NCBI GenBank assembly: GCA_011523395.1
Contig: WTGW01000023.1
Location: 1-34,925, forward strand
Source of the DNA: Acidimicrobiia bacterium
GTDB taxonomy: Bacteria > Actinomycetota > Acidimicrobiia > Spongiisociales > Spongiisociaceae
Reading direction: 5' to 3'
DNA length: 34,925 nt
Shown here: one piece after another, positions 12,884 to 27,236 of the stretch
Layout of the letters: every line of letters starts with the position of its first letter
Numbering within the stretch: the stretch's first letter is position 1
Position numbers and translations under genes: made by a program
The notes under the pieces: generated by a model
Seen by the model: only the letters and a program-made list of their open reading frames with translations
Database searches by the model: none
Told to the model about the DNA's origin: nothing

Positions 12884-13804
12884 CAACTAGACCAGAGCGC
12901 GCCCTGGTCCGTCCCGGCAAGTCGCCGGGACGGACCAGGCTTGCGCCGCGCTGGTTCATCTCGCCCGCCACCACCGCGGTGCTGGCCCTGAGCATCTTTC
13001 CGCTGCTCTTCTCGCTGGGCCTCACCTTTACCAACGTCAACCTCTTCCGGCGGACGCCGCTTCGCTTCGTCGGGCTGGAGAACTGGGCGCGCATCTTCTC
13101 GGACGAGGCGCTCTTAGAGACGCTGATCAACACCGTCATCTTCGTGGGTGGCGGCGTGGCTATCCAGTACACCCTGGGCCTGGCGCTGGCGGTGGCACTC
13201 AACCGGGGACTGCGCGAACAGCGCTTGATGCGGGTGCTGTTCCTGCTGCCGATGATGGTGAGTCCCATCGCGGTGGGCTTCATCATCGGCCGGATGGTGT
13301 TCAGCGAGGGGTTCGGGCCGATCAACGACATGCTGGACGCCCTGGGACTGCCCGCCGTGGCCTGGGTCACCTCGCCGGCCACAGCCAAGTTGACCATCAT
13401 CCTGGTCGACACCTGGCAGTGGACGCCGCTGATGATGCTCCTGATACTGGTCGGTCTGCAGGGCATCCCCGGCGAACCCCTCCAGGCGGCCCCGGGTGGA
13501 CGGCGCCTCGGAATGGCAGATCTTCCGCCACATCGTCTTCCCGCTGCTGCTCCCGGTCAGTATCACCGCCATCCTGATCCGCGCCCTGGAGGCATTCAAG
13601 ATCATCGACATCATCCGGGTGGTGACCGGAGGCGGCCCGGGCCGGGCCACCGAGTCGGTGACCGCCTACGTGTACAACGTCGGCGCCAAGCAGGGAGACC
13701 TTTCATACGCCGCATCGGCCGCCTACGTCCTGTTGTTCGTGGTGATCGGGGTCAGCTTGCTGGCGCTCTATGTCATGCGCCGGGTGCAGGAGCGGTACGC
13801 ATGA
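12880..13804 (+). pseudogene. ABC transporter permease 1 (sugar type, MalF/UgpA-like), apparently frameshifted in the EAA loop
   Basis: Frame 1 encodes ...RLAPRWFISPATTAVLALSIFPLLFSLGLTF...[15 protein letters not shown]. The rest ([55 protein letters not shown]...MRRVQERYA) is in another frame (ORF 13496-13804). Dropping one C of CCCC at 13490-13493 restores a continuous EAA motif. The start is uncertain: no ATG/GTG/TTG in frame before 12979. Confidence 0.8.
12903..12939 (+). repeat. Strong inverted repeat (16-bp perfect stem, 5-nt loop) at the SBP-permease junction
   Basis: CCTGGTCCGTCCCGGC-AAGTC-GCCGGGACGGACCAGG; arms are exact reverse complements. Confidence 0.85.
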
Positions 13805-14637: not shown

Positions 14638-15290
14638 CCACCGGCGTCACCTTCATTGCCGACGATCTGCGGCTGGGCGCATCGACCCGTCACCTCTCCC
14701 GTGCTTTCGGCGATCTCGCAGATGAGGGCTGGCTACTCGATCCCCAGCACATCGCCGGTCGCCGGAAGAGCCGCACGCCCACCATCTACTGGTCGGAGCC
14801 CTTCCAGGAGACCGCCGCGTTCGGCCTGTTCGAAGCCCCGGGTCCCCGCGCAGCCCACCGGCAGATCAGCAGGCTGGTCAAAGCGGGCTGGGGACGGATG
14901 TTCGGACGGACGAAGTGGATCGTGGGCGCCCGCGACCTCCCTCCCGCGTTGGGGGATGGACCCTTCGACCAGGGCCTGGGCTTCTTGGCGCTGTGGGATT
15001 GGAACGACGCCTGGCACGCCGCGACGCCGGAGGAGCGTGCGGTCTACGATCGTGACTGCGACGCGGCATTCGAGTACGACGTGGAACTGGGAATCGACAT
15101 CTTCGGCCGCTTCGACGCGAGCGCCGCTTCGGACTGGGACCATGCGGCGTTGTGGGAAGTGCCGGACCTTCCGACGCTCGCCGAGGCAATGCATGGCCAC
15201 GAGATCCAGGACGATTTCATGTTCACCACGTCGTATCATCTCATCGGGCGTCCGATCGCCTTCGACCAACTGGGGGAACGGCTTCGGTGA
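14634..15290 (+). CDS. Uncharacterised protein in the sugar-transport cassette
   Basis: GTG start overlapping the permease 2 stop (GTGA). 218 aa [33 protein letters not shown]...QLGERLR, same frame as the longer track ORF. No family recognised. Confidence 0.7.
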   Translation: MTTGVTFIADDLRLGASTRHLSRAFGDLADEGWLLDPQHIAGRRKSRTPTIYWSEPFQETAAFGLFEAPGPRAAHRQISRLVKAGWGRMFGRTKWIVGARDLPPALGDGPFDQGLGFLALWDWNDAWHAATPEERAVYDRDCDAAFEYDVELGIDIFGRFDASAASDWDHAALWEVPDLPTLAEAMHGHEIQDDFMFTTSYHLIGRPIAFDQLGERLR

Positions 15291-15604
15291 TCACCTGGAT
15301 ACACACCTACCGGCCACGGCCAGGCTGGTACGAGGAGACCGAACTCAACCGGGATGGAATGCTCGCCGGTTGGGAGGAGGCCGTCTCGGTTTCAATCGAC
15401 GAAGGGGCCACCCGGGTGGGTCCGCTGTCGATTCGAGGCCAGTCGCGGCAGGAGCGTCTGGAGGTCTGGACCTTCCCCACACTCAAGGCGCTTGAGAACC
15501 ACTGGTTGCGGCTTCGCCGGCTCGGCTACACGGATTGGCGGGAATCAGAGAACACGGTCGCAACCGAGATAGTCGAGAGCCGACTCACCGGACCGGCACG
15601 CTGA
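15287..15604 (+). CDS. Small uncharacterised protein, terminal gene of the cassette
   Basis: GTG start overlapping the preceding stop (GTGA). 105 aa MITWIHTYRPRPGWYEETELNRDGMLAGWEEAVSVSIDEGATRVGPLSIRG... Confidence 0.65.
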   Translation: MITWIHTYRPRPGWYEETELNRDGMLAGWEEAVSVSIDEGATRVGPLSIRGQSRQERLEVWTFPTLKALENHWLRLRRLGYTDWRESENTVATEIVESRLTGPAR

Positions 15605-15695: not shown

Positions 15696-17993
15696 CTAGC
15701 CGACGGTGCCGACCCGGTATCCCGGGGGCGGCGCTTCTCCCAGTAGATGCTCCACGAAGAAGTCCCAGCGCCGGCGGGTGAAATACGGGTCCTCGTTCCA
15801 GGTTCCCCACGTGGCGGCATAGTCATGGTTCCGGTTGGGAAGCACCAGCAGGTCGAAGTCGCGGTTCGCCTCGATCAGAGCATCGACCAGCTGAAAGGTC
15901 GCGGCGGGATTGACGTTGTCGTCCAAGTCCCCTGTGACCAGGAGGAGCTTGCCTCGAAGGTTCTCCGCCAGCGTCCGGTTGGCCTGTGTGTCCCAGCCTG
16001 GTCCCCGAAACGGCCCGACCCAGCGTTCGCCCCATGTGACGTTGGTGAGCGCCTGGTCGTGGTTGCCCGACGACGCCACACCCACCCGGTACAGGTCGGG
16101 GTACTCCAGCATCGCCCGGACCGCGGCGTACGCGCCCGCCGAGTGGCCATAGATTCCGACCCGGCTGAGATCGAGATAGGGTCTGGCCTCGGCCAACTGC
16201 GCCAGGACTGCGGCGTGATCGGCCAGGCCTCCCGCCCCTCCCTGCCCACCGTAGGGCGCGTCGAGGAAGGCCCTGGACCTCCCCGGTGTCCCCGACCCGT
16301 CGACGGTGACCACCACGAATCCGAGGTCGGCCAGGCAGCGGGTGCTCTCGCCCACCAGGTCGGTGAAACCGCTGGGAGTTCTCGTGGCCTGCGGGCCGGG
16401 ATAGATGCTCTCGACTACCGGATACCTCGCAGCCGGGTCGAAGTCGTAGGGCAGGACGATCATCCCGTAGAGGTCGGTCTCGCCGTCGCTCGCCTTGGCG
16501 GAGAACCGTTCGGGGTACCGCCACCCCGATGCCAGGAGGGCCGAGACGTCGGCTTCGACGATCCGCGCCACCAACTCGCCCGAGGACTTCCTCAGGACCG
16601 TCCTGGGCGGTTGGTCGATCCGCGAGAAACGGTCCACGAAGTAGCGTCCATCCGGCGAGAAGTCCACCCACGGGGGCCACTCCCCGTGGGCGGCGTCCTC
16701 CGGCGTCAGCAGGCGCGGCGCCCCTCCGTCAAGGCTCACCGCATACAGGTGGTGGTAGTACGGATCCCTGGAGGCTTCCCGCCCCGTGGCCATGAAGTAG
16801 GCGGTCCGGGTCTCCTCGTCGACCCTCAACAGGTCGGTGACCAGCCAATCGCCGCTCGTCAGCTGCCTGACGGGATGACCACCACCGTCGAGCAGGTACA
16901 GGTGGCCCCAGCCGCTCCTGGCCGAGTACCAGATGATCTCCTGCCGATCCCCGCTGACCCAGACATTGGGACGGCCGTAGTAGACAGCGTTGAGGTCGAT
17001 CGGGGTCTCGCTCTCCTCCTCCACGAGCACCGAACATCCCCCGGTCGCCGGATCGCCCCAGACCAGCCGGACCGAGCGCCGGTCTCGATCCCAATGCACG
17101 AAGTACACCGCGTCGCTGCCGGCGGACCACCAGGCGTGCTCCAGCTCGATCGGGGTCAGGAACGACGACTCCAGCGGGTTCCACGACAGGTCGGCGCGCC
17201 TACCGGTCCCGGTCTCGAACACGACCAGGTGTGCCAGCGGCAACTCGGCATCGCCCGGCAAGGCCTGGCGGTAGGTGTGGATGCGTGGTCGCAGCGACCC
17301 GTCCGGCGGGGCCGGCTGCCACAGGTGCATCGTCCCGACCCGCCGCTCGTCGAGCCTATGGGTCAGGAGGTAGCGCTCGTCGGGGGACCAGAGCACCCTC
17401 GGGATCAGGTCCCGGTTCCCCAGGCGGTCGGTGACCGCCGAGTTGCGACCCTCCGGAGAGGACCCGTAGCCGAAGGCGGCCTCGGCATCATCGGTGAGAG
17501 TTGCCGACCTGCCCTCGACGTGATCGACCAGCACAAGGTCTCCCCCGGTCACCGTCACCCCGTGTCTCCCGGAGGGTGAGACGTTCCCCTGCCGGGTTCC
17601 TCCTGGGACGGGCCGCTCCCGCAACGAGGAGCCGTCCAGCCGGCATTCCCACCGGCCGCCATCCACCGCGAAACCTATCCGGGAACCATCAGCTGCGAAT
17701 TCGAACGTCTCGAACGGGAGCCGCTGGGGCTCGATCCCCCTTTCGAGGACCGCCGAGAGAGCCCTGGCCACCATCCGGTGGTCGAACGCCTCTCGCTGGT
17801 GACCGGTCTGCGCGTCCACGAGCATGAAGCGGTGGCCTGATGCCGATTCGGAGCGGTACCAGAAGGCGGTGGAATCCGGTAACCATCGTACCTTCGTTTC
17901 GAGGTTGAACACCAGGGACTTGGCATTCCGGTAGAGCATCGCTTCCGCGCGCCGGTACCGCTCCCACATGGCCGGCTGCTGCTCAGGGCCCAT
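15696..17993 (-). CDS. S9 family peptidase (dipeptidyl peptidase IV-like beta-propeller plus prolyl oligopeptidase domain)
   Basis: N-terminal propeller-like repeats (STAFWYRSESASGHRFMLVD; WSPDERYLLTHRLDERRVG). Catalytic region VGIYGHSAGAYAAVRAM, GDLDDNVNPAATFQLVDALI, PNRNHDY. Confidence 0.88.
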   Translation of the reverse strand: MGPEQQPAMWERYRRAEAMLYRNAKSLVFNLETKVRWLPDSTAFWYRSESASGHRFMLVDAQTGHQREAFDHRMVARALSAVLERGIEPQRLPFETFEFAADGSRIGFAVDGGRWECRLDGSSLRERPVPGGTRQGNVSPSGRHGVTVTGGDLVLVDHVEGRSATLTDDAEAAFGYGSSPEGRNSAVTDRLGNRDLIPRVLWSPDERYLLTHRLDERRVGTMHLWQPAPPDGSLRPRIHTYRQALPGDAELPLAHLVVFETGTGRRADLSWNPLESSFLTPIELEHAWWSAGSDAVYFVHWDRDRRSVRLVWGDPATGGCSVLVEEESETPIDLNAVYYGRPNVWVSGDRQEIIWYSARSGWGHLYLLDGGGHPVRQLTSGDWLVTDLLRVDEETRTAYFMATGREASRDPYYHHLYAVSLDGGAPRLLTPEDAAHGEWPPWVDFSPDGRYFVDRFSRIDQPPRTVLRKSSGELVARIVEADVSALLASGWRYPERFSAKASDGETDLYGMIVLPYDFDPAARYPVVESIYPGPQATRTPSGFTDLVGESTRCLADLGFVVVTVDGSGTPGRSRAFLDAPYGGQGGAGGLADHAAVLAQLAEARPYLDLSRVGIYGHSAGAYAAVRAMLEYPDLYRVGVASSGNHDQALTNVTWGERWVGPFRGPGWDTQANRTLAENLRGKLLLVTGDLDDNVNPAATFQLVDALIEANRDFDLLVLPNRNHDYAATWGTWNEDPYFTRRRWDFFVEHLLGEAPPPGYRVGTVG

Positions 17994-18103
17994 CCGACTC
18001 GATCCGGCGACCGGCTTGGACGGCCACGCTCAGCATGCCGAGCCCGGCCCGGCGCCGCTCCAACCACGGCTGGCCCTTCGAACGAGGGGACCCCCTCCGC
18101 GGA

Positions 18104-19030
18104 TCAAACGAGTCCCCGGAGGAGTTCCTGCCTGACGCCTGCGACGTAGGTAACCGTCGGGTTCACCACCTGGGTGGCGCGCGCCTCGAGGACCTGGCTC
18201 AGTAGCAGGACGGCTTCTCGGGGTTCGAGCCCGTAGTCGGCATGGAGCCAGCGGATCAACTCGGTCACCGCCACCCTGAGGGAGCTCTCCGCCGGCCGGT
18301 CGGCCGCCACCGTGAAGATACGATCCGAGGTGACGATCCGGGGCCAGATCATCTCGGCCGGACGTGGCATGAGTTGGACCCTCAGCCGGAGGAGGGCACT
18401 CGTCTCGATACCGGTACCCGAGACCTCGCCGTCCCCCTGCACGGCGTGAACATCGCCGATATGCAGCAGGGCCCCGGGGACATTGACGACCAGACGCACC
18501 CTGGCGCCCGGCCCGACCTCCTGCACGTCCATGTTCCCGCCCCAGTTGCCGACCCGCACCGTCGACTGCGCTTCGTGAGCGGGAGCAACGGCCACCATCC
18601 CCACCATCGGGCGGGCAGGGATGGTCAATCCCCGGCTCCAGATCACATGGTCGCCACGTATCCGGACGACACGCGCCGCGGCCAAGTCTCCAACCGGAAC
18701 GGGTGAGCTCGGAAAGAGCCGGTTGCTCCCCGCGAACGTGGTGTACCCGACCGGCGCCAGTTCCATGTCCTCGATCACGACTTCTATCGCCATCCCCGGC
18801 TCGGCGCCCTCCACCCAGATGGCGCCCGAGGACGGGTTGGCACCCTCGACCTCGTAGGAATGGTGTTCCGACCACTCCTCCCGAAGGTCGTCAGGCACGG
18901 CGGAGATGTCAGGACCCCGGTTCATCTGGGTGGCCACCTCGAACACCTCGCCCGGCTCCACGCGCAGGGTGGGAGGGTTGTTCGGGCTCGCTTCGTAGTA
19001 GAGGGGAGAAGGCCCCTGGCGCCGGATCAT
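18104..19030 (-). CDS. Acetamidase/formamidase family protein
   Basis: HSYEVEGANPSSGAIWVEGAEPGMAIEVVIEDMELAPVGYT; GNWGGNMDVQEVGPGARVRLVVNVPGALLHIGDVHAVQGDGEVSGTGIE is the family hallmark. Confidence 0.9.
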   Translation of the reverse strand: MIRRQGPSPLYYEASPNNPPTLRVEPGEVFEVATQMNRGPDISAVPDDLREEWSEHHSYEVEGANPSSGAIWVEGAEPGMAIEVVIEDMELAPVGYTTFAGSNRLFPSSPVPVGDLAAARVVRIRGDHVIWSRGLTIPARPMVGMVAVAPAHEAQSTVRVGNWGGNMDVQEVGPGARVRLVVNVPGALLHIGDVHAVQGDGEVSGTGIETSALLRLRVQLMPRPAEMIWPRIVTSDRIFTVAADRPAESSLRVAVTELIRWLHADYGLEPREAVLLLSQVLEARATQVVNPTVTYVAGVRQELLRGLV

Positions 19031-19037
19031 CTGCCGA

Positions 19038-20204
19038 TCATCCTCCCAGGATCTCCGCCAACCTGTCGGCGATGATCTTCTCCTGGCCGGCCTGCAAGGT
19101 GGAGACGCGTACGTCGAGATAGTCCCGATCCGGGTCTACCCACTGGTAGTGGGGGCGAAGGATGATGCACGGCTCCCCGTCGTGTAGCTCCCTGACCACT
19201 TCCGCCAGGGTCTTGGGTGAGCGGAAGCGGTCGAACGTGACCCGCAGAGAGTCCGGCGGCTTCGGATCGGCGGTAACGGAGCCGTCCTCGTAGGAGAAGC
19301 TCAGGAACGGGAACGCCTGGAGGCGAGACCGCATGTTCTCCATGAGCCGCCGGTAGTTCCGGAAGCGCCGGCCGTGGTCCATCTCCAGCCAGTTCCTGAG
19401 CGCTGCGTAGGCAGCCATTATCTCGGCGCGACCGACCTTCATGTGCCTTCCGAACGCCTGCGCGTCCGGCCCCTCGAAGGCCAGGTAGCTGTTCCTACGG
19501 GCAGCCGCGATGCCGGCGGCCGTTCCGGTGAGGATTCCCGCCATCGAACCGGCGCCGAAGAACTTCCCGCTGTAGGTGGCGAAGTCGGCGCCGGCGCGAA
19601 CGTACTTGCTGAAGTTCTCGAGGGGGTAGACCTGCTCGGCCGCGTCGACGATCACCGCCAGGCGATGGCGCCGGGCAATCTCGAGGACCCGCTCGAACGG
19701 GACCACGTTGGGCGCACCGGGAGCGTAGAAGAAGATCCCGGCCGTCCGCTCGCCGATGACCTTCTCGATGTCTCCCTCCGAGGTGGAACACTCGTCGCCG
19801 GCCGGCACGATCCTGCCGCCGGCGCCCTCGAGACACCGGTCGTAGAAAGTCCGCCTTCCGGCCTGGACCACGAACTCGTTGCGGAGCCCGGTGGTATCGG
19901 GGATCCGCGCCACCAGGTCCTTCCTTCCTTCGGTCATGCAGGCCGCCGTGGCCAGGACTGCCGCGGCCGCGGCTCCAGGGGTCACCATCGCTGCCTCGAT
20001 CCCGAGCATCCCGGCGATCGCCTCGCCGGCCGCGTCGGAGAGGCTCTCCACCTCCAGGAAGGATTCGTTGGCTGCCGACACGGCTTCGAGCACCGTTCCC
20101 CGGGGGAGGCTGCCGCCTAGCCCCGTCAGGTCGTTGTGGGCGTTGATCACAGGACGAACACCCAGTTCGGAAAGAAGCACGTGCCCGGTCCACCCACCGC
20201 TCAT
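19038..20204 (-). CDS. PLP-dependent SelA-like enzyme (L-seryl-tRNA(Sec) selenium transferase-related family)
   Basis: LGVRPVINAHNDLTGLGGSLPRGTVLEAVSAA; DAAEQVYPLENFSKYVRAGADFATYSGKFFGAGSMAGILTG contains the predicted PLP lysine. Confidence 0.82.
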   Translation of the reverse strand: MSGGWTGHVLLSELGVRPVINAHNDLTGLGGSLPRGTVLEAVSAANESFLEVESLSDAAGEAIAGMLGIEAAMVTPGAAAAAVLATAACMTEGRKDLVARIPDTTGLRNEFVVQAGRRTFYDRCLEGAGGRIVPAGDECSTSEGDIEKVIGERTAGIFFYAPGAPNVVPFERVLEIARRHRLAVIVDAAEQVYPLENFSKYVRAGADFATYSGKFFGAGSMAGILTGTAAGIAAARRNSYLAFEGPDAQAFGRHMKVGRAEIMAAYAALRNWLEMDHGRRFRNYRRLMENMRSRLQAFPFLSFSYEDGSVTADPKPPDSLRVTFDRFRSPKTLAEVVRELHDGEPCIILRPHYQWVDPDRDYLDVRVSTLQAGQEKIIADRLAEILGG

Positions 20205-20246
20205 AGGGCGGACCCACCCCCGATCATCGACACGATCCGCCGCCGA

Positions 20247-21236
20247 TCATCCCTCGGCCGGGGTCGTGAGTATCTCCGCCAGCCGGTTGGCGCCGATGCT
20301 CCCGCCGCTCAGGACGCAGGCGACGGGGCCGTCCCGCCGCTCCCCGAGGGCCGCCGCCAGCGACATGGCGCCGGAGCCCTCCACGACCAGCTTGTTCCCC
20401 AGCGCCAGGCTCGCGATCGCGGTACGCACATCGTCCTCGGAGACCAGAGCCACCCTGTCAACCACGGAGCTCACCAGCGGGTACATCTCGTCGACCACGA
20501 CCGGCACGGCCGTGCCATCGCAGATCGTCGCCCCTGCTTGCACCCAGGTCGGCTTTCCGGCCTCCAGAGCCGCTCCCAGCGAGGGGCACGCCGTGCTCTG
20601 CACTCCCACCACCTCCACGGCCGGCCGAAGCTCCTTGATCACGCTGCCTATCGCCGCCACCAGACCGCCGCCACCCACAGGTATGTAGACGGCCTTCAAC
20701 TCGGGCAGCTCGTCGAGTATCTCCATTCCGATCGTTCCGGAACCCGCCAGCATCGAGGGGTCGCCCCACGGGTTGAGGTAGCTGTACGGCTCCCGCTCCC
20801 ACCCCCTGTCGAAGACGTAGTCCATCAGCGCCGAGAACGGCACCGGCACCGGGGTAACACCGTAGGAGCGGACACCGTCGACCTTCACTCTCGGGGCACT
20901 GTCCGGCAGGAGGCTCCTGGCCGGGACCCCTAGAAGCCGGGCCACGTACCCGAGGGCCTGGGCGGTATTGCCGGCGCTCTGCGTGCTCAGCCCTCTCTCC
21001 CTCTCGACGGGGGACAGCGACATGCCCCAGTTCAGCACGCCCCGCAGCTTGAACGACCCGGCCGGCTGGAGGCACTCCGCCTTGAGCCAGACCGGTTCGC
21101 CGTCCTCCATGGTCTTGTACCGCAACAGCGGTGTCCGCAACGCCACTCCTTCGATGCGGCCGGCCGCCTCCTCCACGTCCCGGATCGACGGAGGGGGAAT
21201 GGGTGGGCCGCCCGATCCGGTTCTCATCTCGCTCAT
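20247..21236 (-). CDS. Threonine/serine dehydratase-like PLP-dependent enzyme (fold type II)
   Basis: PLLRYKTMEDGEPVWLKAECLQPAGSFKLRG (PLP Lys), STQSAGNTAQALGYVARLLG, VGGGGLVAAIG, VLSGGSIG. ATG at 21236 overlaps the ABC ATPase stop (ATGA). Confidence 0.86.
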   Translation of the reverse strand: MSEMRTGSGGPPIPPPSIRDVEEAAGRIEGVALRTPLLRYKTMEDGEPVWLKAECLQPAGSFKLRGVLNWGMSLSPVERERGLSTQSAGNTAQALGYVARLLGVPARSLLPDSAPRVKVDGVRSYGVTPVPVPFSALMDYVFDRGWEREPYSYLNPWGDPSMLAGSGTIGMEILDELPELKAVYIPVGGGGLVAAIGSVIKELRPAVEVVGVQSTACPSLGAALEAGKPTWVQAGATICDGTAVPVVVDEMYPLVSSVVDRVALVSEDDVRTAIASLALGNKLVVEGSGAMSLAAALGERRDGPVACVLSGGSIGANRLAEILTTPAEG

Positions 21237-22075
21237 TCGTTCAACTCCCGTCCATCGCTGCCGGAATGGATCGGAGCGTAGGGTATGCACATCGGTGAGC
21301 CGGTCTTCGGGTCGGCGACCACGGCGGCCTCGACCCCGAAGCATTCCCGGAGCAGTCCCGGCGTCAACACCTCGTCAGGAGCGCCGTCGGCGACGACGTC
21401 ACCACCGGACATGGCGATCATACGATCCGAGAACCTGGCCGCATGGTTGAGGTCGTGGAGCACCATGACGATGGTCACCCTACGGTCCCGGTTCAGGCTT
21501 GACACCAGCTCCAGCAGATCCAGTTGGTGACCGACGTCCAGGAAGGTGGTGGGCTCGTCCAGGAGGAGGATCTCGGTCTGCTGGGCGAGGGCGAGCGCCA
21601 TCCAGGCCCTCTGGCGTTCGCCCCCGGACAGCGTGTCGATGGGACGGTGGACGAATTCCTCGAGGCGGGTCAGCCGGATGGCTTCTTCGATCGCGTCATC
21701 GTCCTGGCGGCGGAGCATGCCGAGCGCGCCCACATGGGGGAACCGGCCCTGCTCCACCAACTCCACCACGGTTAGCTCGGCCGGGACCTCGTGCACCTGC
21801 GGGAGAATCGCCATCTGGCGAGCCACCTGCCGGGTCGGCAGGCCGTTTATGTCCTGGCCGTTGAGGTAAACGGCGCCCGCCAGGGGAGCGAGCAGGCGCG
21901 CCAGCGTCTTGAGGGTGGTGCTCTTCCCCGATCCGTTCGGACCCACCAGCGACGTCCTGCTCCCCTTCTCCACGCTCAGGCTGAGGCGCTGCGACACAAC
22001 GTGCCTTCCGTATCCGGTGGAGATCCCCTCGGTCAGGATGGCGGGGTCGGCGGCCATCGGCTCCCTCCCGGTCAT
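21233..22075 (-). CDS. Iron/siderophore/cobalamin-type ABC transporter ATP-binding protein (FecE-like)
   Basis: Walker A GPNGSGKST, signature LSGGERQRAWMALALAQ, Walker B ILLLDEPTTFLD; VSQRLSLSVEKGSRTSLVGPNG. Confidence 0.94.
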   Translation of the reverse strand: MTGREPMAADPAILTEGISTGYGRHVVSQRLSLSVEKGSRTSLVGPNGSGKSTTLKTLARLLAPLAGAVYLNGQDINGLPTRQVARQMAILPQVHEVPAELTVVELVEQGRFPHVGALGMLRRQDDDAIEEAIRLTRLEEFVHRPIDTLSGGERQRAWMALALAQQTEILLLDEPTTFLDVGHQLDLLELVSSLNRDRRVTIVMVLHDLNHAARFSDRMIAMSGGDVVADGAPDEVLTPGLLRECFGVEAAVVADPKTGSPMCIPYAPIHSGSDGRELNE

Positions 22076-23160
22076 CGCGTGCGTTCCCGCATGAGGTAGA
22101 GGAAGAACGGTGCTCCCACCAGGGCGGTGAAGGCGCCAACCGGGATGCGGCTACCGCTTTCGGTGCGGATGTCAACGAACGGGATCCAGTCGAGCGAGAA
22201 GACGCGAGCCAGAAGGTCGGCGGCCACGAGGATGACGGCGCCCACCAGAGCGGAGCAGACCAGCAGCCTCCGGAGGTCCGAGCCCACCAGGGTGCGAGCC
22301 AGGTGGGGACCGATGAGGCCCAGAAAGGCGATACCGCCGACCACGGATACCGATCCGGCCGCCAGCACGACCGCCGTCATGAGGATGAACGCACGGGCCA
22401 ACTCGGAACGCAGTCCGAGGCTCACCGACGTGCTATCTCCCAACTGGAGCGCATTGGCCAGCGGTATGACCAGCACCACCAGGGGAAGGGCCAGCGCCGC
22501 AACGGGCACCAGGAAGACCAGGTGGTCCCACGTCCGCGTGCTCAGCGATCCCACCAGCCACCTGACGATCGAGTCGATGTGGCTACCCGAGATCAGGACC
22601 ATGAACGACGTGACCGACGAGAGTGCGGCGGCAACGACCACCCCGGTCAGGATGAGCCGGATGGGATCGGTGCCGGCGCGGCGGTAGCTGAGCACGTAGA
22701 CGATGGCTCCTGCTGCCAGACCACCCGCAATCGCCCCCAGCGGCACCAGGGCGTTCAGATCGTTCAGCGCCCCCTCCGACCCGAAGGTGATCACCAGGGC
22801 CAGGACCGCACCCAGGACGGCGCCCTGCGTCACCCCGACCGTCGCGGGAGCGGCCAGGGGATTCCGGAGAACCGACTGGAGCAGCGCCCCGGACGAGGAC
22901 AGCATCGCCCCGGCCAGCGCGGCGATCAGGACACGGGGCACCCGGACCTCCCACACCGAGATACGGTGGTGAAGCTCGTCCGCCTGATCGATCAGGGCTT
23001 TGAGGACGAGATCGGGACCGAAGACGACCGGGCCCAGCATCACGTAGGCGAACATCACGGCCAGGAGCAACGCGCCGAGCGCCACCAGTACCTGCCGGGT
23101 CCGGACCTCCGGAGTGACGCCGGCCTTCCCGCGCCGGTCTACGGCGGCGGTGACGGTCAA
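22072..23160 (-). CDS. FecCD-family ABC transporter permease
   Basis: RVPRVLIAALAGAMLSSSGALLQSVLRNPLAAPATVGVTQGA; GGIAFLGLIGPHLARTLVGSD. The TTG at 23160 overlaps the upstream permease stop (TTGA); the track start at 23235 is probably too early. Confidence 0.9.
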   Translation of the reverse strand: MTVTAAVDRRGKAGVTPEVRTRQVLVALGALLLAVMFAYVMLGPVVFGPDLVLKALIDQADELHHRISVWEVRVPRVLIAALAGAMLSSSGALLQSVLRNPLAAPATVGVTQGAVLGAVLALVITFGSEGALNDLNALVPLGAIAGGLAAGAIVYVLSYRRAGTDPIRLILTGVVVAAALSSVTSFMVLISGSHIDSIVRWLVGSLSTRTWDHLVFLVPVAALALPLVVLVIPLANALQLGDSTSVSLGLRSELARAFILMTAVVLAAGSVSVVGGIAFLGLIGPHLARTLVGSDLRRLLVCSALVGAVILVAADLLARVFSLDWIPFVDIRTESGSRIPVGAFTALVGAPFFLYLMRERTR

Positions 23161-24212
23161 GGGATGGCCCTTCGCCGCACTAGCCCTCTTTGCATGAGCA
23201 CCAGTAATGCCGGGGCGCCTAAGACGACCGTCCACAGACCGACCGCGATCTCGTGCGGATGGAGGGCGAGCCGGGCAGCCATGTCGGCGCTGACAACGAG
23301 GATCGCCCCCACCGCCGCGGAGACGGGGAGGACGATCCGGGCGTCCGAAGTCCGCAGCAACCTGCGGACGATGTGGGGCGAGACGAGCGCCACGAATCCG
23401 ATCGGGCCCGCAATGGCGATCACCGGCGCCACCAGCAGGACCGCCGCGGCGAAGAGAAGTGCCCTGGTACGCCGGACGCCGACACCGAGTCCTTCGGCCA
23501 TCTCGTCACCCAAGGCCAGGATGTTCAGAGGCCTTCCGGCGAGGAGGAAGACAACCGGCAGAGCAACGGTCCAGGGGGCCACCAAGCGCACCTCCTCCCA
23601 TTGAACGTCGGAGAGACTCCCGACCAGGAAACGGTAGATGATCGAGACACCTCCGAAGTTGGGAGCAAGCGTTATAACCGCTATCACCAGCGCGTTCAGC
23701 AGGGCCGTGAACGCTGCTCCCACCAGCAGCATGCGCATGGGGTTGCTCTTGAGGCTCACCAACGACAGGATCAGCGTTCCCGTAGCCAGTCCCGCCGCGA
23801 GAGCGGCCAGCGGCAGGGCGATACCTGGAAACGGGAGTCGGAAGGCGACGATGGTGGCGACTGCCAGCGAGGCTCCTGCGGACACGCCGATCAGCTCAGG
23901 ACCGGCGAGAGGGTTCCGGAGCGTGTCCTGCATCACCGCGCCCGAAACGCCGAGCATCCCACCCGCCACGAGTCCGCCGATCACTCTCGGAAGCCGGAGG
24001 TTCTGGACGATGAACCGCTGGTTTCCCTCGGACGTGCCCGATCCGGACAGTGCGTCCAGTACCTGCCCGACCGACAGGTCGGGGGTTCCCTGCATGAGTG
24101 ACACCACGGCCACCGCTGCGCACAGGCAGGCGATGAGGAGCACCACGATGGCAGCCCGGGCCGACCTGCCGCGGAACAGGGAGCGCCTCCTCAGTAAGCC
24201 CCGATCATTCAT
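23157..24212 (-). CDS. FecCD-family ABC transporter permease
   Basis: RLPRVIGGLVAGGMLGVSGAVMQDTLRNPLAGPELIGVSAGAS; GPIGFVALVSPHIVRRLLRTSD. Confidence 0.92.
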   Translation of the reverse strand: MNDRGLLRRRSLFRGRSARAAIVVLLIACLCAAVAVVSLMQGTPDLSVGQVLDALSGSGTSEGNQRFIVQNLRLPRVIGGLVAGGMLGVSGAVMQDTLRNPLAGPELIGVSAGASLAVATIVAFRLPFPGIALPLAALAAGLATGTLILSLVSLKSNPMRMLLVGAAFTALLNALVIAVITLAPNFGGVSIIYRFLVGSLSDVQWEEVRLVAPWTVALPVVFLLAGRPLNILALGDEMAEGLGVGVRRTRALLFAAAVLLVAPVIAIAGPIGFVALVSPHIVRRLLRTSDARIVLPVSAAVGAILVVSADMAARLALHPHEIAVGLWTVVLGAPALLVLMQRGLVRRRAIP

Positions 24213-24403
24213 GGATGGAGGTTTGTGGGGGTGACGGGAATAGGTGCTCCTCGCTCCTGACCTGGGGTTATAGGCATTTTGGCAGCCCTATCTCCCGGCC
24301 GGGTGTGAAGTCAACCGCCGGGTGAAGGGTGGCTATTTCGCAAGTGATGTGCTTGACGTGGCCTGATCCGCGCCGAAGGGCTGAGAACAGGAATAGTCGG
24401 AGC

Positions 24404-24438
24404 TAGGGGAGGGTCGAGAGACCGACGACCCTCCCCTA
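24404..24438 (-). repeat. Strong inverted repeat (13-bp perfect stem, 9-nt loop) between metal-type SBP and permease genes
   Basis: TAGGGGAGGGTCG-AGAGACCGA-CGACCCTCCCCTA; no downstream T-tract on the minus strand. Confidence 0.85.
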
Positions 24439-24467
24439 ACCGGCTTGCCCCCCGGGGGTGATCCCAC

Positions 24468-25664
24468 CTAGGCAGCAGGCATCCAAACCGATAGATCTCC
24501 TGGATGGTCGTAGATGGCCGGCCAGCCGGCATTCAGGTAGCACTGGTAAGCCCACTGGAGCATCAGCAGCCCGTGACCGAAGGCACCCGCCGAGTCCTCC
24601 TCACACACCCGGCCTTCGCGGTGGGCGGTGGTGTTGAGCCACACTTCCTGGGTGACGGTGTCGTAGCGGGCGCTTCCGGGCCAGGTGATCATGACCCAAA
24701 CCTCGGGATCCGTCTCCACGATGAACTCCCAGGAGAACTCGCTGTCCGGGGATCCGTATTCGGATTCGCCCTGGTCCGGGAAGGCACACGTCCCGGCCCC
24801 CTCGGAGTGGAGGAACTCGCAGAACGAGGACGAGTCCCAGATCATCCAGTTGGTATCCCCGAATCCGACGGCCACCCGGGTGTCCACGGCTCCGGCGGGA
24901 AGATCGGCCGCCAGGGCTGCGACGTTGGCCTCGAACCTGGCGATGGCCGCGGTCGCCTCTTCTTCCCTGCCCGTCAGGATGCCCACATCGATCCATCCCT
25001 CCTTGAGAGTCTCGACGCCGCCGATATCGACCAGATACACCGGGGCGACGACTTCTAGCGCGTCCCGGACCTCTTCCTCACCGACCCGTCCGATGATCAG
25101 GTCGGGCTCGAACTGGGCGACTTCCTCCACGGACATACGATCACCGAGCACCGGAATGTCAGCAGCTCCGTCGCCGTAGTAGGCGGCGGCACTACCCCAA
25201 CCATCGCCTCGATGCTGGGCGATAGGCACTATTCCCAGGTCGGAGGTGAGGTCGGTGCAGTTGTCCTGCACGCACAGGACCCGCTCGGCAGGACTGTCGA
25301 GCGTGATCTCGCGCCCGCTTCCGTCCGTGACCGTCAGGGTCATGGGCTCGTCCTCGTGCTCGTGGTCGTCCTCGTCGTCCTCGTGCTCGTGGTCGTCTTC
25401 CTCGTGCTCGTCCTCGTGCTCGTCGTCCTCTTCGTGCTCGTCCTCGTGCTCGTCGTCCTCTTCGTGCTCGTCCTCGTCCTCGTGCTCCTCGGTTGCAGGG
25501 GGCGCGGAGGTGGTGGTTGTGGCCGCGGTGGTGGTTGTGGCCGCCGTGGTGTCGCCCGCGTCCTCGCCACCGCATGCGGTCGCTACCAGAAACAGTGCCG
25601 CAACCACGACGCAGACCCGGATGCTCCGTGGGGACAAGAACTCGAAGATCCTCAGATTGACCAT
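24468..25664 (-). CDS. FepB/BtuF-type ABC transporter substrate-binding lipoprotein with H/D/E-rich tract
   Basis: Signal peptide with lipobox LVATAC; MTLTVTDGSGREITLDSPAERVLCVQDNCTDLTSDLGIVPIA; VLGDRMSVEEVAQFEPDLIIG. ATG at 25664 preferred; TTG at 25685 possible. Confidence 0.88.
   Translation of the reverse strand: MVNLRIFEFLSPRSIRVCVVVAALFLVATACGGEDAGDTTAATTTTAATTTTSAPPATEEHEDEDEHEEDDEHEDEHEEDDEHEDEHEEDDHEHEDDEDDHEHEDEPMTLTVTDGSGREITLDSPAERVLCVQDNCTDLTSDLGIVPIAQHRGDGWGSAAAYYGDGAADIPVLGDRMSVEEVAQFEPDLIIGRVGEEEVRDALEVVAPVYLVDIGGVETLKEGWIDVGILTGREEEATAAIARFEANVAALAADLPAGAVDTRVAVGFGDTNWMIWDSSSFCEFLHSEGAGTCAFPDQGESEYGSPDSEFSWEFIVETDPEVWVMITWPGSARYDTVTQEVWLNTTAHREGRVCEEDSAGAFGHGLLMLQWAYQCYLNAGWPAIYDHPGDLSVWMPAA
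25347..25490 (-). repeat. In-frame low-complexity/tandem repeat (30-bp unit) encoding a tract of only His, Asp and Glu
   Basis: Encodes EEHEDEDEHEEDDEHEDEHEEDDEHEDEHEEDDHEHEDDEDDHEHEDE: 48 residues, 10 His; repeated unit EHEDEHEEDD. Confidence 0.9.
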
Positions 25665-25698
25665 GGTGAAGTAGTGCCCTTTCAATAGTCGCTCCCAT

Positions 25699-25727
25699 AA
25701 TGATAATGATTCTCATTCTTATGTCAA
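25699..25727 (-). promoter_or_regulatory. Fur-family-box-controlled promoter of the metal-type SBP operon
   Basis: Plus strand AATGATAATGATTCTCATT (25699-25717), close to the TGATAATnATTATCA Fur-box core. On the minus strand TTGACA (25727-25722), 16-nt spacer, TATCAT (25705-25700). Confidence 0.75.
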
Positions 25728-25915
25728 TGCCCCGGAGTGGTGCCCGCGCGCCGTTTCGACGTTGGTATGGCCGCGACTCCTGCATTTCGACAACGGTGGT
25801 GAACGCGCCCGCTCTATGAGGTAGAAGACATTTGGTTTGGCCGAGTACGCACAAGTCACTCGCGATCGCTATGTGTGAGCACTCACCAGCTATATATTTT
25901 CGCACTTACACCTGC

Positions 25916-25921
25916 TATAAT
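25916..25921 (+). promoter_or_regulatory. Candidate -10 element (TATAAT) upstream of the DUF4143-type ATPase
   Basis: Exact TATAAT in an AT-rich patch 38 bp upstream of the preferred GTG start; no convincing -35 box. Confidence 0.4.
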
Positions 25922-25958
25922 CTCGCACTCAGACGGCTTCGAGACAAGGAGGTGGCTG

Positions 25959-27236
25959 GTGCGCGGAGCTTTGACACCGCCCGGCTACCTACCTCGCATG
26001 GTGGACACCGAGGTGGATTTCGCGCTGCGGGCCGCGCCGGCGGTTGTCATTGAAGGAGCGCGGGCAACCGGCAAGACATGGACGGGGCGCCGGTTCGCCG
26101 CCAGTGCGGTGACCATCGACGACACCGACGACGTCCGGCTGGCGGTCGCGCTTGATCCCGGCGCCCTACTCGATGGCGACACTCCCCGGCTCTTGGACGA
26201 ATGGCAGCTGGCCCCGCGCATCTGGAATCCGATGAGGCATGCCTGCGACCGCCGAGCCCGGCCGGGCCAGTTCATCCTCACCGGCTCCGCCGATCCCCCC
26301 GACGACGTGACCAGGCATTCCGGCGCCGGACGGGTGCTGCGAGTGCGGATGAGACCGATGTCGCTGTTCGAGTCGGGTGAGTCGAGCGGATCGGCGTCGC
26401 TGGGTCGGCTTCTTGACGGCGAGCGGGCCGCGGGCGGGCGCTCCGATCTGAGCATCGCCGATCTGGTGGACCTCGTGTGCCGCGGCGGATGGCCCTGGCT
26501 CCTCGGCGAGTCGCCCGATGTGGCACAGACCCGGCTGCGCGGCTACCTCGGCGAGGTGGCCAGAACCGATGTGGCCCGGTCGGGCGGCCCGGCTCATGAT
26601 CCCGTCGGCGTGCGCCGGCTGCTCGTCTCGCTCGGCCGCAACGAGTCAACGGATGCCTCCTACAAGACGCTGGCCGGCGACATGAGCGGCAGCCGGGAGA
26701 CCCCTACGCATCCCCGCACCGTCAAGCGGTACGTCGACGCCCTATCGCGGTTGTTCGTCGTGGAGGGGCTACCGGCCTGGGCGCCTCACCTGCGGTCGAG
26801 GGCGCAGCTGAGGCGTTCGGAGAAGCGGTACTTCGTTGATCCGTCCCTGGCGGTGGCGGCGCTCCGGACAGGACCCCGACGGCTACGCGCCGACCTCGGC
26901 TTCTTCGGTCTGCTCTTCGAGTCCCTGGTGATGCGAGACCTGCGGGTGTACGCCCAGACCAACAACTGCCGGGTGTCCTACTTCCGCGACAACACGTCAC
27001 TGGAGGTAGACGCGGTGATCGAGCGAGGTGACGGCGAGTGGATGGCCGCCGAGATCAAGCTCGGTGGTGAGAGGCTGATCGAGCAGGGCGTGAACTCCCT
27101 GCTACGGCTGCGCAGAAGGGTCGACACCGACCGGGTGGGCGAGCCCTCGGCAATGGCGGTCATCACGGCCACCGGCTACAGCTTCGAGCACCGCGATGGT
27201 GTCCAGGTAGTACCCATAGCGACCCTTGGCCCCTGA
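25959..27236 (+). CDS. ATP-binding protein, DUF4143-type AAA family
   Basis: Walker-A-like VVIEGARATGKTW, LLDEWQLAPRIWNPMRHACD, FILTGSADP, C-terminal FGLLFESLVMRDLRVYAQ...VSYFRDNTSLEVDAVIERGDGEWMAAEIKLG. GTG at 25959 follows AAGGAGGT; the track start at 25875 lies upstream of the candidate promoter. Confidence 0.85.
   Translation: MRGALTPPGYLPRMVDTEVDFALRAAPAVVIEGARATGKTWTGRRFAASAVTIDDTDDVRLAVALDPGALLDGDTPRLLDEWQLAPRIWNPMRHACDRRARPGQFILTGSADPPDDVTRHSGAGRVLRVRMRPMSLFESGESSGSASLGRLLDGERAAGGRSDLSIADLVDLVCRGGWPWLLGESPDVAQTRLRGYLGEVARTDVARSGGPAHDPVGVRRLLVSLGRNESTDASYKTLAGDMSGSRETPTHPRTVKRYVDALSRLFVVEGLPAWAPHLRSRAQLRRSEKRYFVDPSLAVAALRTGPRRLRADLGFFGLLFESLVMRDLRVYAQTNNCRVSYFRDNTSLEVDAVIERGDGEWMAAEIKLGGERLIEQGVNSLLRLRRRVDTDRVGEPSAMAVITATGYSFEHRDGVQVVPIATLGP

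Follow-up and report, generated by a model that had tools for sequence, protein, structure and literature searches.

Systems that combine control by zinc starvation with a small metal-binding molecule have been described for staphylopine, with CntABCDF, and for coelibactin, which is under Zur in Streptomyces (PMC6711530, PMC6103462). For such zincophores it is mainly the synthesis and the uptake that are known, while the removal of zinc from the ligand inside the cell is much less clear. Ferric-siderophore importers of the FecBCDE/FhuBCD type work with the cytoplasmic siderophore hydrolases Fes and IroD. Zinc itself is imported by AztABCD, of which AztABC is a cluster A-I metal-ion importer. 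DgaE, D-glucosaminate-6-phosphate ammonia-lyase, acts on an alpha-amino, beta-hydroxy acid.

The operon considered here lies in a stretch of 34,925 nucleotides (contig WTGW01000023.1, referred to as the window) from an uncultured actinobacterium of the class Acidimicrobiia, and it is a candidate import-and-dismantle route for zinc. It resembles the Cnt and coelibactin systems in its apparent zinc-starvation control and its likely link with a small metal-binding molecule, but its importer is of the FecBCDE type and not of the Opp/Nik type, and it has possible ligand-processing enzymes instead of synthesis genes; neither CntKLM-type synthesis genes nor an Opp-type importer are found among the genes of the operon. 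With FecBCDE/FhuBCD and Fes/IroD it would share the importer architecture and the cutting of the ligand inside the cell. However, the box is of a zinc type, the esterases are replaced by an S9 peptidase and PLP lyases, and orthologs are found in few Acidimicrobiia only. A regulatory palindrome and H/D/E-rich loops in the solute-binding protein (SBP) are shared, in these genomes, with the AztABCD importer, whereas the importer of the window is a chelate-type one (FecCD/Peripla_BP_2). The SelA-like enzyme is reminiscent of DgaE in its family, its PLP lysine and a likely alpha,beta-elimination, but it scores 125.6 bits against the 600-bit cut-off of the DgaE equivalog (NF047797) and occurs in a different gene context. 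The open-access literature searched, which was covered in part, yielded no system for dismantling or for peptidase-linked uptake of a zinc chelate, and among papers on siderophore peptidases and FecCD operons there was no match either.

Eight genes follow each other in one direction on the minus strand (15696-25685), in the order SBP, FecCD, FecCD, FecE-like ATPase, Ser/Thr-dehydratase-like enzyme, SelA/DgaE-like enzyme, short acetamidase and S9 peptidase (Table 1). Their coordinates were confirmed, Pfam and NCBIfam agree on their families, and all are present as the sequence-only reading of this DNA had given them. The spacing it had proposed (an ATGA overlap and gaps of about 42, 7 and 110 nt) agrees with the measured values: a 4-nt overlap between ATPase and dehydratase genes, 42 nt between dehydratase and SelA-like genes, 7 nt between SelA-like and amidase genes and 110 nt between amidase and S9 genes. 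The real start of the second permease may lie downstream of the annotated GTG. Beyond the S9 gene there is a convergent long frame (15152-15604), and upstream of the promoter a divergent gene encodes a DUF4143 ATPase (25875-27236); the latter is absent from the syntenic loci L041-L043 and does not belong to the unit. Elsewhere in the window, a sugar ABC permease gene (12979-13804) has an apparent frameshift near 13490, with the C-terminal half in another frame, which could be an assembly error or decay.

Table 1. Promoter elements and genes of the operon (positions in the window)
Feature	Positions	Strand	Remarks
Sigma-70-type promoter before SBP gene	25700..25727	-	TTGACA-N16-TATCAT, 11/12 matches
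Palindrome, candidate Zur box	25701..25715	-	TGAGAATCATTATCA, 7-1-7; between -35 and -10, overlapping -10
SBP gene	24468..25685	-	Peripla_BP_2 (FecB-type) lipoprotein; likely start ATG at 25664
FecCD permease 1	23157..24212	-	Family match
FecCD permease 2	22072..23235	-	Family match; annotated GTG start gives 79-nt overlap with permease 1
FecE/FepC-type ABC ATPase	21233..22075	-	ABC_tran, best match FecE
Fold-II PLP Ser/Thr-dehydratase-like enzyme	20247..21236	-	PALP; PLP motif PAGSFKLRG kept
SelA/DgaE-like fold-I PLP enzyme	19038..20204	-	TIGR01437 (SelA-related/DgaE family); core enzyme
Short acetamidase/formamidase-family protein	18104..19030	-	FmdA_AmdA; window's family only
S9 serine peptidase	15696..17993	-	Last gene; DPPIV_N propeller and Peptidase_S9 hydrolase; core enzyme

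A promoter scan found one site, where 0.3 were expected in shuffles. The placement of the palindrome within this promoter is usual for a repressor site. Actinobacterial Zur boxes have common features and have been described as palindromes, for example of the 7-1-7 kind (PMC6103462). A DtxR box was sought in the window and none was found. In most orthologous loci the site recurs upstream of the SBP gene: it is exact in L041-L043, L055 and both copies in G272, has one mismatch in L044, L045, L057 and G207, and is weak (two mismatches) in L046. Counted by genome, the operon sites have one mismatch in G002, G007, G207 and G261 and two in G003 and G381. The SBP gene of G175 is split across contigs, and an exact site goes with its matching part; that of G142 is cut off by the end of the contig.

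The nature of the regulation can be read from the other targets of the box. A search of the entire 3.1-Mb genome gave exactly two occurrences of the strict pattern TGANAATNATTNTCA, against none for the reversed-pattern control. One is that of the operon. The other is found 51 bases ahead of the gene of a 790-residue protein, where an AztD zinc-chaperone domain is flanked by two ZnuA/AztC halves. With one mismatch permitted there are two more sites (control: one), in front of the genes of an AztC-type SBP and of a Peripla_BP_6 SBP; no iron gene is found behind the strict or one-mismatch sites of this genome. Among relatives, 11 have sites, of which 31 were examined, with one further G272 copy of the operon's own site omitted, and the reversed pattern gives none in each genome. 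All but one of the 31 (G003 C35) precede genes for metal transport or solute binding, or a divergent pair of AztB permease and Fur-family regulator, which stands behind the box at six loci; the assignments of G175 C19 and C94 are based on incomplete reading frames at the ends of contigs. AztC, AztB or AztD-like proteins account for 19 of the 31. Besides the operon SBP, AztC or AztC/AztD proteins and an AztD-like protein, the targets include other FecB-type SBPs, a FecCD permease and a Peripla_BP_6 SBP. As in a Zur regulon, the promoter contains a palindromic box, and in this or related genomes that box also stands before genes for zinc uptake and a Zur-like gene. The Fur-family protein encoded next to AztB fits generic Fur models better than Zur models. 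It is 39-43% identical to C219 of the window's genome and about 27% to C101, and therefore C219 is the better Zur candidate. Because the other targets of the palindrome are zinc genes, it is read here as a candidate Zur box; the name Fur, as judged from these targets, is probably wrong, and zinc regulation of the operon can be called a prediction well supported by genome comparison.

The unit was followed through 396 genomes of the class with fixed cut-offs (E <= 1e-80 for S9, > 700 bits for SelA-like), below which weaker relatives may exist. SelA-like and S9 orthologs are found in the identical 13 genomes, adjoining the transporter in all 13, and the SBP ortholog in these 13 and one more (G381). 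The genomes are MAG assemblies, probably from marine sponges; contamination of the window's genome is 4.98%, yet the operon recurs in 13 genomes. The core unit consists of transporter, SelA-like enzyme and S9 peptidase and occurs in two families. All four enzymes are encoded in six genomes, while G007 is without the dehydratase and the second family (g29), with six genomes, is without dehydratase and amidase. The latter two enzymes are confined to the window's family, where the dehydratase is present in six of seven loci. In the second family the SelA-like and S9 genes overlap by 4 nt in five of the six genomes, with a spacing of 138 in L055. The flanks of the two families are partly different, and the trees of core pair and transporter are broadly congruent. 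Purifying selection acts on all genes (dN/dS about 0.04-0.25). In G381, SBP, both permeases and ATPase are 75-81% identical and are preceded by the weak, two-mismatch palindrome; the locus has no enzymes, and its next gene appears by eye to be DNA-polymerase-III-subunit-like. Dismantling would therefore be dispensable for transport. In the unrooted transporter tree the longest branch, which lies between the two families, belongs to G381, and midpoint rooting suggests that the enzymes were gained stepwise; loss is also possible.

These data bear directly on the earlier proposal that the enzymes process an imported metallophore. One ground for abandoning it would have been homologous clusters that never keep the four enzymes next to the transporter; this does not refute it, as enzymes adjoin the transporter in 13 of 13 genomes with the core pair. 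As the two form one conserved unit, importer-linked processing is well reasoned, whereas an iron/Fur framing is not supported. Nor is a conserved four-enzyme set: the core is SelA-like and S9 only, and the G381 transporter has none.

Outside this group, a phylum-wide search (E <= 1e-60) recovered the SelA-like protein from the window's genome only among 399 sampled. A pattern-based contig scan found 11 close loci and a 34%-identical Bathyarchaeota protein, the locus of which contains no match to other operon genes. Distant SelA-like relatives within the class (G251, G139, G258 and paralogs in G002/G003) lie among unrelated genes, to judge by eye from the reading frames around them. The cluster is found twice in the G272 MAG (L053 on C4, L054 on C1), with equal scores for the compared genes, and is either a duplication or an assembly artefact. 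A 1-kb contig of G261 (C62, L149) carries a second SBP fragment, 79% identical, and a permease start.

The transporter has all parts of a FecBCDE-type importer: a Peripla_BP_2 SBP, two FecCD permeases and a FecE-type ATPase. The SBP has the lipobox LVATAC and an H/D/E-rich linker of variable length, in which Thr, Pro and Ala take the place of H/D/E in L044, L055 and G381; HDEEEGD repeats are found in the loop of the regulon's standalone AztC. Being optional, the linker is by itself no guide to the metal. The SBP structure model (10 rows) has a mean pLDDT of 35.7, too poor to read the pocket.

The two PLP enzymes and the amidase belong to recognizable families and score below the curated cut-offs of the more specific models. 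In the SelA-like protein the putative PLP lysine, in ATYSGKFFG, is invariant. It reaches 152.9 bits on the subfamily model TIGR01437 (cut-off 385.3) and 21.4 bits on SelA (TIGR00474, cut-off 267.9). Because DgaE acts on an alpha-amino, beta-hydroxy acid, its substrate may reasonably be guessed to be a beta-hydroxy amino acid too. The dehydratase-like protein matches Pfam PALP and attains at best 218.5 of the 496 bits set for threonine ammonia-lyase equivalogs; its chemistry is of the same kind as that of the SelA-like enzyme, on a different fold. The amidase matches Pfam FmdA_AmdA and has 56.8 against 500 bits on formamidase FmdA (NF045496). A link with kupyaphore and isonitriles, with a formamidase acting on N-formyl products, was considered and rejected: the operon contains no isonitrile-hydratase-type gene and the literature search gave no tie. 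The S9 peptidase resembles DPP4 (S9B) in its propeller and hydrolase Pfam domains and its Ser-Asp-His motifs; the catalytic motifs are invariant and place the triad at Ser618, Asp691 and His723. The Glu-Glu motif, by which DPP4 anchors the substrate N-terminus, is absent from all 13 orthologs: VADEEM of 2ecf aligns with VTDRLG, of which VTDR is kept in 13 of 13. Without it, the protein is not a canonical dipeptidyl peptidase and should not need a free N-terminus as DPP4 does. Its structure model (13 rows; mean pLDDT 48.5) is too poor to use. By eye, no obvious signal peptide is present in the PLP enzymes, the amidase or the S9 peptidase. Taken together, the enzymes would fit a process in the cytoplasm that strips the metal of a peptide-like ligand containing a beta-hydroxy amino acid.

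The explanation that we favour, with a probability that we put near the midpoint between false and true, is a Zur-controlled zinc-starvation operon whose products take up a zincophore-like zinc chelate and process it within the cell. When zinc is sufficient, a Zur-like repressor of the Fur family would occupy the palindrome within the promoter, and upon zinc shortage the operon would be expressed. The lipoprotein SBP, with its metal-rich linker and Peripla_BP_2 domain, may capture the metal-chelate complex, which the FecCD/FecE importer would carry across the membrane. In the cytoplasm, the S9 peptidase could cleave the peptide-like ligand, and the DgaE/SelA-like enzyme could eliminate ammonia from the released beta-substituted, probably beta-hydroxy, amino acid; this would destroy the metal-binding group and free the zinc. 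In the window's family, the amidase and the second, fold-II PLP lyase might extend the same chemistry. Of this scheme, the sequences show the gene content, the conservation of the unit, the purifying selection, the overlap of box and promoter and the zinc character of the other box targets; that Zur binds the box, that the solute is a chelate and its metal zinc, and in which order and on what substrates the enzymes act is what we infer. Under zinc control, zinc release would be a more direct purpose than carbon or nitrogen supply. A more detailed version, in which the route is dedicated to a peptidic zincophore (FecBCDE-type uptake under zinc starvation, cleavage of the peptide in the cytoplasm, breakdown of the metal-binding amino acid by PLP chemistry) and was assembled stepwise from transporter, SelA-like/S9 and amidase/dehydratase, is put forward tentatively, as something that may well turn out otherwise. 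If the explanation is true, the step that takes zinc off the ligand becomes directly testable in a zinc-boxed chelate importer with peptidase and PLP lyases, and it would point to a zinc chelate as a public good within an uncultured group of bacteria.

The operon could instead be an iron-siderophore system under Fur, with enzymes that free the iron by recycling a peptide siderophore. The palindrome does match the classical, E. coli-type Fur consensus, the SBP matches are siderophore-binding proteins and the ATPase is closest to FecE/FepC models; but in the same genomes the genes behind the palindrome are AztC, AztB and AztD-like ones and that of a candidate Zur rather than iron genes, and a DtxR-family regulator (C108) exists separately, which makes this reading unlikely. 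The same targets weigh against the import, governed by this Fur-family repressor, of another metal complex (one of manganese, cobalt or nickel, or a corrinoid), since AztB, AztC and AztD are zinc proteins. Corrinoids are also carried by FecCD/FecE importers and the permeases score on BtuC models; however, an S9 peptidase and a PLP lyase do not suit corrinoid handling. Manganese is possible, because the AztC/AztD fusion SBP scores equally on the MntC model. Altogether, we regard such a solute as very improbable.

Zinc control may also have a different meaning. Zur regulons include zinc-free stand-ins for zinc proteins (PMC6103462), and S9 peptidases and PLP lyases are non-zinc enzymes; the serine peptidase and PLP enzymes might thus replace zinc-dependent ones when zinc is short, with the transporter as an independent zinc importer encoded alongside them. 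Such zinc sparing seems improbable too, as no zinc-enzyme counterpart of the SelA-like protein is evident, and in the class the core enzymes occur only beside the transporter, which a shared substrate explains better than general substitution. That the enzymes serve peptide and amino-acid nutrition, sharing merely the promoter through an incidental adjacency, would suit the common catabolic families of S9, dehydratase and amidase and an enzyme set that differs between lineages. Still, core pair and transporter have been co-inherited in two families despite partly different flanks, and carbon-nitrogen scavenging leaves the zinc-type box unexplained, so that we hold this to be quite improbable.

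Some further features of the box's other targets can be mentioned. The locus L128:2409-4778 (C201 of the window's genome) and its counterparts in relatives encode an SBP of the AztC/ZnuA kind with the AztD domain between two His-rich stretches, inserted in C201 at the place of the H/D/E-rich loop of the standalone AztC (L118). In a published docking model the D-loop of AztC projects into AztD (PMC7463823). The AztC/AztD protein is a natural donor/acceptor fusion. The Peripla_BP_6 SBP behind the same palindrome is encoded at L129:8462-9763 in G008 and, with one mismatch, at L128:6476-7702 in the window's genome. At L125 (G272 C25) and L132 (G175 C19) a zinc-type box stands beside an ABC exporter-like gene; in L125 the other side of the box is occupied by a divergent second FecB-type SBP gene encoding long DHEDEDD repeats, and the arrangement at both loci is a possible chelator export/import pair.
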